A DNA stretch of 64,000 nucleotides from Bacteroidota bacterium (GCA_018267825.1 JAFDXR010000016.1:1-64000); one strand, 5' to 3'; positions 33,660 to 36,761 are shown, counted from the first letter of the stretch. The notes: generated by a model not told the origin, from the letters alone. Program-made: numbers and translations.

Positions 33660-35039
33660 TCAGAGGGTAATGCCTATGACGCAAATATCATCTACCTGTT
33701 CCAAGGGTCCTTTCCAGGTGTCCATCACAGATTTTACAGTGTCGAGTTGGGCCTGTGGCGTATGATTCCGTATGGAGGTCAGTAAATCTTCCATTTGCCG
33801 GTAGCGGAATTTTTTGCCTTTTTCGCCGCCAAACTGATCGGCATATCCATCCGTGAACAGGAAAAGCTGGTCGCCCCTGTTAAGTAACAAGCGATGACTG
33901 GTAAAAGGGGTTGGGAAATCGGATTTCCCAATGGGTTGTTTATTGGCTTTAATCTCGTGGAATGTTCCATTTTGGATATACCATAGGGGGTTATTGGCGC
34001 CGGCCCATACCACTTCTGTCTGTGATCCTGCTTTCGTGAATGATGCCAATGAAATATCCATCCCATCCTTGATGTCTTCGCCACCCTTAATAAATGTTTC
34101 TAATACCAGTTCCCTGGTTTTATCCAGGATCAGGCCTGGATCCTCTAGCCCAAATTCCTTGATACTTCGGTTCAGGGCATTGCTGCATACAACCGATACC
34201 ATGGCGCCAGGAACCCCATGCCCCGTGCAATCGGCGGCGGCGATAAGAAACGTATCTTCAACAGCCTCAGCCCAATAAAAATCACCGGCCACAATGTCTT
34301 TTGGTTGATAATACACAAAAGTACCTGGCAGAAATTTGTGTATAAAACTCATCGGTGGAATAAGTGCTTGTTGTATTCGTTTGGCATAGCTAATGCTATC
34401 GGTGATTTCCCGTTGCTTTTCTTCTACTTCATGCAAGGTAACCCTGAGTTTTTCTTCAACCTGTGCTCTGAGTTTCACTTCTTTACGAAATGAGATGTTC
34501 CATAAAATAAAACTGCTGATGAGCATGATAATGCCAGTATATAACATCACACTTCCGTAGGGCCAATGCTGAAACTTGAACAGAAACCCTATGCAAATAC
34601 AAAATACTGCCGCCAGGTCGAGAATGTTTAATAGAATAACTCTCCCGGTCAAAAGACCTTTTCGTTTTTCGTAACGGTCAATGATGATAAGGGGTAAGGC
34701 CCCACAGACGAATAGAAAAATTGCCAGGATAATCTCGATTGACGCACCGGCCCAATGCATAAATTTACTGAATGCACCACAGAGAAGCATAAACAATGCA
34801 ATGATACTCACGGTTCTGATTACACGTTTCCGTTTTTGTAGACCCGATTTCAGATAGATCATTGATATGGAAGAGAATAGACCGAATAACGTGCCTAACA
34901 GCATTACAAAACCGGTTACTTTTGGAATTTCAGCGAAAATTTCTTCGGCAAATATGGCACAGCCGCCAAAGGCAAGAAAGCATATGAGCGAAATGGTTAA
35001 TAGAATTTTTCCGAGTGTGTTTAATGACAATGTTGACAT
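33660..35039 (-). CDS. SpoIIE/PP2C phosphatase with membrane segments carrying HWPG-like motifs
   Basis: A 459-residue integral-membrane serine phosphatase. Six to seven TM segments fill the N-terminus and contain two copies of an FKxxHW motif (AFSKFMHWAGA, GFLFKFQHWPYG). A coiled coil (EEKLRVTLHEVEEKQREI) leads to a SpoIIE domain: VAGDFYWAEAVEDTFLIAAADCTGHGVPGAM (read in parts) with the metal-binding aspartates, and the later segment KDGMDISLASF. SpoIIE phosphatases act on anti-sigma antagonists or similar phosphoproteins. The ATG at 35039 is preferred over 35078 because a -7 promoter (35066-35073) lies between them. It is divergent from padR. Confidence 0.85.
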   Translation of the reverse strand: MSTLSLNTLGKILLTISLICFLAFGGCAIFAEEIFAEIPKVTGFVMLLGTLFGLFSSISMIYLKSGLQKRKRVIRTVSIIALFMLLCGAFSKFMHWAGASIEIILAIFLFVCGALPLIIIDRYEKRKGLLTGRVILLNILDLAAVFCICIGFLFKFQHWPYGSVMLYTGIIMLISSFILWNISFRKEVKLRAQVEEKLRVTLHEVEEKQREITDSISYAKRIQQALIPPMSFIHKFLPGTFVYYQPKDIVAGDFYWAEAVEDTFLIAAADCTGHGVPGAMVSVVCSNALNRSIKEFGLEDPGLILDKTRELVLETFIKGGEDIKDGMDISLASFTKAGSQTEVVWAGANNPLWYIQNGTFHEIKANKQPIGKSDFPTPFTSHRLLLNRGDQLFLFTDGYADQFGGEKGKKFRYRQMEDLLTSIRNHTPQAQLDTVKSVMDTWKGPLEQVDDICVIGITL

Positions 35040-35065
35040 CGACTTAAAATTATTCGTTTGAAATT

Positions 35066-35073
35066 CAAATATA
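35066..35073 (-). promoter_or_regulatory. -7 promoter element (TATATTTG) of the SpoIIE gene
   Basis: Minus-strand TATATTTG matches TAnnTTTG, 26 bp before the ATG at 35039. It rules out the upstream ATG at 35078 if used. Confidence 0.5.
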
Positions 35074-35101
35074 TACATTTTTCACAAAGCATAAAAGTCA
35101 A

Positions 35102-35122
35102 ATACATAAATTTCTTATGTAT
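35102..35122. promoter_or_regulatory. Putative PadR operator
   Basis: ATACATAA (35102-35109) and TTATGTAT (35115-35122) form an inverted repeat with a 5-bp spacer. It overlaps the padR -7 element at 35120-35127. The TGTAT/ATACA core is the type bound by PadR proteins. Confidence 0.65.
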
Positions 35123-35127
35123 CTTTG
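35120..35127 (+). promoter_or_regulatory. -7 promoter element (TATCTTTG) of padR
   Basis: TATCTTTG matches TAnnTTTG, 24 bp before the ATG at 35152, and shares three bases with the operator palindrome. Confidence 0.6.
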
Positions 35128-35151
35128 TCTTATGTAATTAATTATACAATC

Positions 35152-35493
35152 ATGATTTACTCTTCCGAATTGATTAAAGGAACCCTCAAAACCATTGTTT
35201 TGAAGTTATTGGCCGATAACAAAAAAATGTATGGATATGAGATCACACAAAAGGTAAAGGAGCTCACTTTCGATAAAATCCAGATTACCGAAGGCGCTTT
35301 ATATCCAACACTGCATGCACTGGAAGCAGACGGGTTGGTAACTACCGAAACCGAGTTTATCGGGAAGCGTGTGAGAAAGTACTACAGTTTGAGCCCAAGC
35401 GGCAAAAACAAAACAAAAGAAAAGGTCAGTGAACTGGCAGATTTTATGGATACCATGAAATTTCTGCTCGACATTAAACCAAAACAAGCCTAA
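35152..35493 (+). CDS. PadR family transcriptional regulator
   Basis: A 113-residue winged-helix repressor. The PadR signature is plain: ELIKGTLKTIVLKLLADNKKMYGYEITQKV, then ITEGALYPTLHALEADGLV and RVRKYYSLSPSGK. The C-terminal helix (KVSELADFMDTMKFLL) probably mediates dimerisation. The ATG at 35152 is used because an upstream TTG (35125) lies within the -7 box. The stop TAA overlaps the ATG of the next gene by one base (TAATG), so the two are translationally coupled. It probably represses itself and the downstream membrane gene. Confidence 0.93.
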   Translation: MIYSSELIKGTLKTIVLKLLADNKKMYGYEITQKVKELTFDKIQITEGALYPTLHALEADGLVTTETEFIGKRVRKYYSLSPSGKNKTKEKVSELADFMDTMKFLLDIKPKQA

Positions 35494-36761
35494 TGTACCG
35501 CATCAGTGATCAACAGATAGATTTTATGCTCGACGACATACGTGCACGTGGCGTTGAGATGGAAAGCCTGCAGCAAAACCTATTGGATCATGTCTGTTGC
35601 ATCATTGAACAGAATCTCGATGCAAACGGAGACTTCGAGAGCTTCTATCAGAAAACCATCCGGACATTCTATAAGGATGCCTTGTGGGAGATAGAGGAAG
35701 AAACCATTTCTCTACTAACTTTTAAAAACTATTACACCATGAAAAAAGTCATGATCATAAGCGGAACTTTTTCTGCTGCAGCAACGAGTGCAGGCATCTT
35801 TTTTAAATTTATGCATTGGCCGGGAGCCTCAGCACTACTGGTACTCGGCATTGCTGTTGCCAGCTTTTTATTCCTTCCATTATTGTTTACCCTGAAGGCA
35901 AAGGAGAAAACCAAAACACGCGATAAGATTATTATAGGTCTTGGCACGATAGCAGCCATTCTTCTGAGCCTTGGTATTCTTTTTAAAATTATGCACTGGC
36001 CCGGCGCTAATATGATGGGCGTTCTGATGATTTCTGTGATGCTCCTGTTATTCATTCCGATTTATTTTTTTACCGGCATCCGCAATCCCGAAACCAAGGT
36101 CAATACCATTGTATTCACTATTCTGGCGATCATGGGCTGTGGCTTATTTCTGGCTCTGGTCAATTCACGGCCAAGCATCCAGATCCATGCTGCCGAAAAT
36201 TCAAATCAGCATTATGAGACTACTTATCTCTATGCAACGGAGCAGGTCAGCCTGAACATGGCCCATGCACTTAAGGATACTTCGGTTGCCGGCAGGAACC
36301 TCGAAAAGCTTCATAGCCTTTGCAACAGTATCTGCACGCAGATCGAACAACTGAAATCAAACGCTGTAACGGTTACAGATTATCTGGACCCTGAACATGC
36401 GAACGAAAACGCACCGCTCCGTAAAATAAATTATGCTGCGCTAATCAATCCCGATAATTACGATTTGCCAACTGCTATCCTGTTCGGAGGAACTCAGCCT
36501 GATGCCGCCAACATTGAAGCCCGGCCGGCACTCGTAAAATTAAAACAGGATCTGAAACTGCTGAATGAAATGGTGCTCAATACGTATAAGCGGCATAGTG
36601 AGGTATTGATCGATCTGTCAGATAAGAACGACATCCGTTTCGCTCATCCTGTAAGCTGGGAAGTCACCAATTTCTACCACACACCACTCAGCAATTTGCT
36701 GGTGAATTTCACTCAACTGCAAATCAATGTTCGCCTTGTAGAGGCAACATGTATTCACTAA
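35493..36761 (+). CDS. PadR-linked membrane protein with paired FKxMHWPGA motifs
   Basis: A 422-residue membrane protein, mostly alpha-helical. Residues ~1-70 form a soluble helical start. Around ~80-205 are six hydrophobic segments with the pattern GIFFKFMHWPGASALLVLG and GILFKIMHWPGANMMGVLM, about 60 residues apart. The motif resembles the first TM helix of the gliding motor subunit GldL (GALFK-hydrophobic-H segment). The C-terminal ~200 residues are soluble. It is translationally coupled to padR and divergent from a SpoIIE phosphatase that carries the same kind of motif. The function is unknown. Confidence 0.75.
   Translation: MYRISDQQIDFMLDDIRARGVEMESLQQNLLDHVCCIIEQNLDANGDFESFYQKTIRTFYKDALWEIEEETISLLTFKNYYTMKKVMIISGTFSAAATSAGIFFKFMHWPGASALLVLGIAVASFLFLPLLFTLKAKEKTKTRDKIIIGLGTIAAILLSLGILFKIMHWPGANMMGVLMISVMLLLFIPIYFFTGIRNPETKVNTIVFTILAIMGCGLFLALVNSRPSIQIHAAENSNQHYETTYLYATEQVSLNMAHALKDTSVAGRNLEKLHSLCNSICTQIEQLKSNAVTVTDYLDPEHANENAPLRKINYAALINPDNYDLPTAILFGGTQPDAANIEARPALVKLKQDLKLLNEMVLNTYKRHSEVLIDLSDKNDIRFAHPVSWEVTNFYHTPLSNLLVNFTQLQINVRLVEATCIH

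Follow-up and report, generated by a model that had tools for sequence, protein, structure and literature searches.

A padR-coupled membrane protein of Bacteroidota that joins GldL-like and GldM-like parts in one chain, a candidate de-energised sensor

The stretch analyzed here, the window, comprises 64,000 nucleotides of a Bacteroidota bacterium (GCA_018267825.1 JAFDXR010000016.1:1-64000) and is located on contig 7 of its 4.8-Mb genome. Between dnaE and a thioredoxin-like gene it carries a divergent pair: a membrane phosphatase gene of the SpoIIE/PP2C type on the minus strand, and padR followed by a gene for a membrane protein of 422 amino acids (aa) on the plus strand. By homology, as judged from profile comparisons and two structure models, the membrane protein is a single-chain fusion GldL-GldL-GldM behind a conserved helical N-terminus. 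Our best reading, which we consider probable, is a de-energised transmembrane sensor of the GldLM type that feeds PadR or PP2C outputs. The coordinates of padR and of the two flanking open reading frames (ORFs) given earlier from the sequence alone (here referred to as the original prediction) were borne out. The features of the plus strand are:

35493-36761, plus strand: padR-coupled membrane fusion protein, 422 aa
35493..35732, plus strand: N-terminal PadR-partner helical domain (HAAS-like by position), aa 1-80
35733..35918, plus strand: GldL-like hairpin 1, FFKFMHWPGA, aa 81-142; Pfam GldL_N; hairpin hidden Markov model (HMM) E 1e-24
35919..36098, plus strand: GldL-like hairpin 2, LFKIMHWPGA, aa 143-202; hairpin HMM E 8e-26
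36099..36170, plus strand: GldM-like transmembrane helix without the GldM Arg, aa 203-226; from hydropathy and alignment with 27 GldM
36171..36758, plus strand: GldM-like periplasmic domain D1, aa 227-422; Pfam GldM_1st, hhalign and Foldseek
35152..35493, plus strand: padR, 113 aa; Pfam PadR E 4e-19

The original prediction had quoted four copies of a motif, AFSKFMHWAGA and GFLFKFQHWPYG in the phosphatase and GIFFKFMHWPGA and GILFKIMHWPGA in the padR-coupled protein, and had likened the segments to GldL. All four are present as quoted. Among all window ORFs scanned (20,357 aa) K-x-x-H-W occurs at these four places only, so the motifs are not due to chance, and each of them is located at the tip of a hairpin of two helices like that of GldL. 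The likeness to GldL turned out to be true homology. Pfam GldL_N matched two stretches of the fusion protein over the curated cut-off (E 4e-10), and hairpin 2 matched the GldL chain of 7sau in a phmmer search (E 6e-4). A scan of 85,000 species genomes found 212 stretches that encode relatives; counts of named loci refer to the best 80 of these 212. To avoid circularity, profiles were made from 36 fused D1 domains and 80 fused hairpins with no true GldM or GldL included, and were compared with 27 GldM and 25 GldL. In this profile-profile comparison with hhalign the fused hairpins matched GldL with Prob 98 (E 2e-13); the profile similarity whose absence had been set beforehand as refuting is thus present.

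The GldM half of the protein had been overlooked, so that the earlier term "GldL-like partner" was right for the GldL part and incomplete for the whole. Pfam GldM_1st matched aa 256-421 over the curated cut-off (E 1.7e-5), and the Pfam scores of relatives are far better (GldM_1st to 6e-16, GldL_N to 8e-17). The profile of fused D1 domains matched GldM with Prob 99.7 and an E value of 3e-27 over 202 columns. Furthermore, structures were modelled with AlphaFold without templates for the window protein (16 sequences) and for a three-hairpin relative (7 sequences). When these models were compared with the PDB by Foldseek, ranks 1-11 for the window protein and ranks 1-17 for the relative were all GldM or PorM, 7sau being among the matches, with TM scores of up to 0.71 and 0.89, respectively, to 6ey0, the PorM N-terminal domain. 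Hydropathy indicated five membrane helices, which is the expected number. The two hairpins stand in tandem within a longer chain, not as a stand-alone GldL with a cytoplasmic tail in gldKLMN, and the chain stops after D1, the GldM domains D2-D4 being absent. As a separate observation, contig 4 of the same genome carries a second full-length GldM (L284, 5948-7627; 559 aa) with four GldM domains and an intact PRQ; there is no GldL or other gene of the type IX secretion system beside it, and in the tree it is sister to the main GldM of the genome.

The residues that power the motor were lost in the fusion proteins. An essential and strictly conserved residue of GldL is Glu49, whose protonation drives GldLM and governs the contact of GldL with GldM (PMC8986121). 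In our alignment Glu49 was present in 25/25 GldL and in 0/80 fused hairpins, and the Arg of the N-terminal PRQ/TRQ in 27/27 GldM and in 0/36 fused M segments. Lys27 and His30 were each kept in 78 of the 80 fused hairpins, and the Trp belongs to the kept group as well. Since Glu49 and the GldM Arg are lost everywhere, the fusion protein is unlikely to be a proton motor. As read from the alignment, the Lys-His pair is a conserved scaffold and not the engine; its earlier comparison with the GldL motor helix was correct as to the pair and incomplete as to the lost residues. Besides, a near-constant proline was noted late in the second helix of the fused hairpins (P129, P189), which is invariant in 16 orthologues and which GldL is without.

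Two explanations bear directly on these losses. The protein could still be an ion-driven motor or a sensor of the proton-motive force (PMF), with the Lys27-His30 pair in place of Glu49, and the retention of both residues does suggest a role for the pair. However, the Glu that drives GldLM is missing from 80/80 and an acidic residue occurs anywhere in the second helix of only 2/80 fused hairpins, so that we find this hardly credible. The direct homology to GldL and GldM and the adjacent gldL and gldM of the same genome might suggest that the protein belongs to the type IX secretion motor as an accessory subunit or brake, its L and M parts mixing with GldL or GldM or sensing the activity of GldLM. 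This is very improbable, given that the fusion protein has no D2-D4, the GldM domains that extend to the outer-membrane ring, that Glu49 and the GldM Arg are gone and that the genes are not near gldKLMN.

The gene pair itself is highly conserved. Here, the padR stop and the start of the fusion gene share one base (TAATG), and the padR start is most likely the ATG at 35152, which gives 113 aa as in the orthologues, rather than the TTG at 35125. Directly upstream of the fusion gene padR was found in 79 of the 80 loci; the remaining one (L098) lies at a contig edge, and the padR of L092 was located by tblastn. The conserved neighbourhood that was to be looked for in other genomes therefore exists for padR and the membrane protein. 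Named isolates which carry the pair are Flavobacterium noncentrifugens, F. caeni, F. silvaticum, F. lotistagni, Adhaeribacter terrigena and Taibaiella soli. Among orthologues, the N-terminal domain had a mean pairwise identity of 74%, the two hairpins of 56 and 50% and D1 of 21%, although D1 was still detected by profile in 67 of the 80 named proteins. Such a gradient would fit an output that is conserved and a sensor that diversifies.

In HAAS-PadR dyads, the counterpart of PadR is a helical domain carried by a membrane sensor (PMC11237479). The N-terminal domain of the fusion protein shares several traits with these: a stand-alone padR neighbour, a position N-terminal to the membrane domain and, in the model, three helices (6-18, 24-41 and 48 onward). 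Additionally, it is modular, since in padR operons elsewhere it is also found in a protein whose periplasmic part is another one. In these two cases (L054, 7723-8589; L059, 6838-7713) the domain is followed by one helix and a periplasmic part that appears thioredoxin-like by eye and gave no Pfam match. In another locus (L283, 5100-7811) one padR precedes two tandem genes of the window type (425 and 431 aa), an encoded ratio of four L hairpins to two M segments (4L:2M).

The unit of two GldL-like hairpins and the GldM-like segment (L2M) is re-used in other contexts and also occurs stand-alone in other proteins. One stand-alone L2M of 323 aa, strongly diverged, was seen on contig 27 of the same genome (L071, 7757-8728) and is a possible partner of the window protein. 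In 12 loci L2M is joined to a further membrane helix, a coiled coil and a PP2C/SpoIIE catalytic domain, in proteins of 689-791 residues. A sensor placed between an input and an output would have this layout, which supports D1 as the putative input domain.

Furthermore, a sister operon class was found in 9/9 loci of two families. It consists of padR, a HAAS-L3M gene (466-485 aa, three hairpins) and an L2M gene (319-330 aa); in one of these loci (L060) padR is off the contig. One alignment of the analysis (A2) holds a GldM row, so that its counts include GldM next to fused proteins; of its matches only those which cover the hairpins were taken as fused. The composition of the GldLM complex is 5:2 (PMC9389320). 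In all nine loci the sister operons encode five L and two M parts, which equals this composition.

The intergenic region between padR and the phosphatase gene contains the following elements:

35102..35122, plus strand: PadR-type operator ATACATAA-N5-TTATGTAT, a perfect 8-bp inverted repeat predicted by sequence
35120..35127, plus strand: -7 element of padR, TATCTTTG, overlapped by the operator; fits TAnnTTTG
35066..35073, minus strand: probable -7 element of the divergent phosphatase gene, TATATTTG, by reading of the sequence; consistent with a start at 35039

The consensus of the -7 element in Bacteroidetes is TAnnTTTG. A PadR operator had been predicted, and the putative site has equivalents in 66 of 78 orthologue loci, where the palindrome AT[AG]CAT-N9-ATGTAT lies upstream of padR as against 0.015 expected from shuffles; in 43 of the 78 it runs directly into the -7 element (nTTTG). 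The operator of the window is the only perfect site in its genome. A wider PadR regulon was considered and rejected, because the next candidate is no better than a control pattern. Owing to the palindrome over the padR promoter and the single perfect site, the most likely target of repression by PadR is its own operon, with little beyond it, as is the case for PadR proteins of Listeria (PMC6624303).

This arrangement could also be expected if the fusion protein were the regulated output. PadR would then be the sensor, of a small molecule or of stress, and would repress a membrane protein with an effect on the envelope, LltR/Lmo0600 of Listeria being the example. In Listeria the PadR repressors chiefly regulate the operons in which they lie, which encode membrane proteins, and the phenotype of the LltR mutant is due to over-production of a DUF1700 membrane protein (PMC6624303); the single operator at its own promoter fits as well. 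However, the extreme conservation of the N-terminal cytoplasmic domain, the fixed pairing with PadR and the fast evolution of the periplasmic domain speak against it. A further objection is that the module is also attached to PP2C catalytic domains, and there an input function is the simplest assumption. We therefore regard a regulated output as unlikely.

The divergent gene encodes a phosphatase with the following features:

33660-35078, minus strand: ORF of the membrane SpoIIE/PP2C phosphatase; 33660..35039 from the likely start, 459 aa
34659..34838, minus strand: GldL-like hairpin A, FSKFMHWAGA; hairpin HMM E 4e-14
34467..34643, minus strand: GldL-like hairpin B, LFKFQHWPYG; hairpin HMM E 6e-18; Pfam GldL_N over cut-off
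33669..34256, minus strand: SpoIIE/PP2C catalytic domain; Pfam SpoIIE aa 275-470, E 1e-18

The start is probably near 35039, where the orthologues begin. A third, degenerate helix pair without the motif is present at aa 16-76, and the metal-binding Asp residues in GDFYW, AD-TGHG, TDG and VDD are invariant among phosphatase orthologues. With divergent promoters flanking the operator, the phosphatase gene could be co-regulated.

According to the original prediction, the phosphatase and the fusion protein would form one physical module. The divergent gene with two L hairpins and a PP2C domain adjoins padR in the window and in 7 of the 80 named loci and also lies beside one HAAS-L3M operon, and the GldL hairpins common to both proteins could pack together. 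However, since most orthologue loci are without it, the phosphatase cannot be obligatory, and the genome encodes 31 SpoIIE phosphatases. A physical module of this kind thus seems quite unlikely, and the core unit is padR with the fusion gene. What did not hold is the fixed neighbourhood; a link to phosphatases as such does exist through the L2M-PP2C fusions. A role of the phosphatase as general supplier of the hairpins missing for a five-hairpin ring was rejected: most loci lack the phosphatase, and it also adjoins a complete 5L:2M operon. Only two STAS-domain matches were seen in the same genome beside its 31 SpoIIE/PP2C phosphatases.

Some points weigh against the sensor reading. The window operon encodes 2L:1M, and a homodimer would give 4L:2M and not 5:2. 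Both AlphaFold models are of medium confidence (pLDDT 72.5 for the window protein and 69.5 for the three-hairpin relative; pTM about 0.4). Finally, the N-terminal domain has no Pfam HAAS match and gave only Prob 7 in hhalign against Pfam-HAAS proteins. Together with the absence of the HAAS motif GxP from its alignment, this led us to reject membership in Pfam HAAS, and the domain is called HAAS-like only. In the tree of D1 domains the L3M partner and the L2M partner each form a clade and both share the G021/G030/G042 group split. GldM stands on one side with weak support (65/29) and some branches are long; due to this weak support the tree does not settle whether the change went from motor to sensor or from sensor to motor.

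In the preferred reading, the de-energised sensor, D1 would sense a periplasmic or membrane condition and the signal would shift the M helix within the L hairpins of a putative GldLM-like ring and axle. The shift would alter the N-terminal domain, which would contact PadR and hold or release it, and the altered PadR would let the padR-fusion operon be expressed, perhaps together with the divergent phosphatase gene. The movement of the M helix is proposed because in GldM the helix and D1 undergo known changes of shape relative to the GldL ring. PMF and GldL alter the periplasmic conformation of GldM (PMC8986121), so that the same parts, if working in the opposite direction, could pass a change in the periplasm on to the cytoplasm. 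For the sister operons, HAAS-L3M and L2M may together build a 5L:2M ring and axle whose parts are covalently linked and which has only one PadR-partner domain. It is possible, and proposed here only tentatively, that the fused 5:2 ring and axle (L3M + L2M) is a retired rotary motor serving as receptor, with its proton relay removed and the motion of the axle read by PadR-partner domains or PP2C.

Among known systems the GldLM motor is closest, with the GldL hairpin carrying Lys27-x-x-His30-Trp, the GldM transmembrane helix and D1, the in-out topology and, in one operon class, the encoded L:M ratio of 5:2. The fused version differs in being one chain, in lacking Glu49, the GldM Arg, the GldL cytoplasmic tail and D2-D4, and in being joined to regulatory domains. 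In the HAAS-PadR dyads (PMC11237479), too, padR precedes the gene of a membrane protein whose cytoplasmic helical domain is N-terminal and whose membrane sensor is C-terminal, and the operator lies at the own promoter. The window protein departs from them in an N-terminal domain that is not recognisable as Pfam HAAS and is without GxP, and a GldL/GldM-fusion sensor is not among the sensors listed there.

SiaA-like membrane-anchored PP2C/SpoIIE phosphatases likewise combine a multi-helix membrane part, a coiled coil and a SpoIIE domain with intact metal-binding aspartates, whereas the membrane part here consists of GldL hairpins and in some proteins of the whole L2M with GldM D1. MotAB, ExbBD, TolQR and ZorAB are membrane complexes of the same ring-and-axle kind; no sequence match to them was found. 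These complexes keep an ion-binding residue, and to our knowledge none is known as a fused sensor chain. A review of 5:2 motors describes machines only (PMC9389320). No literature linking GldL or GldM to PadR, SpoIIE or PP2C was found, which is weak evidence as subscription journals were mostly outside the search. The parts are known, and their combination, which joins two known kinds of system, was not seen described.

In HAAS-L3M + L2M, five ring hairpins and both axles are contained in two chains, so that single ring positions can be mutated individually, which homopentamers do not allow; asymmetric motion of ring and axle is thereby directly testable. If the sensor reading is true, a function could be assigned to a widespread group of so far unassigned Bacteroidota membrane proteins, and the fused 5:2 receptor proposed tentatively above would represent a bacterial receptor architecture of a new kind. 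The ion-driven 5:2 complexes are known to be machines, and a fused, proton-dead sensor would show the conversion of a motor into a receptor, or the reverse.

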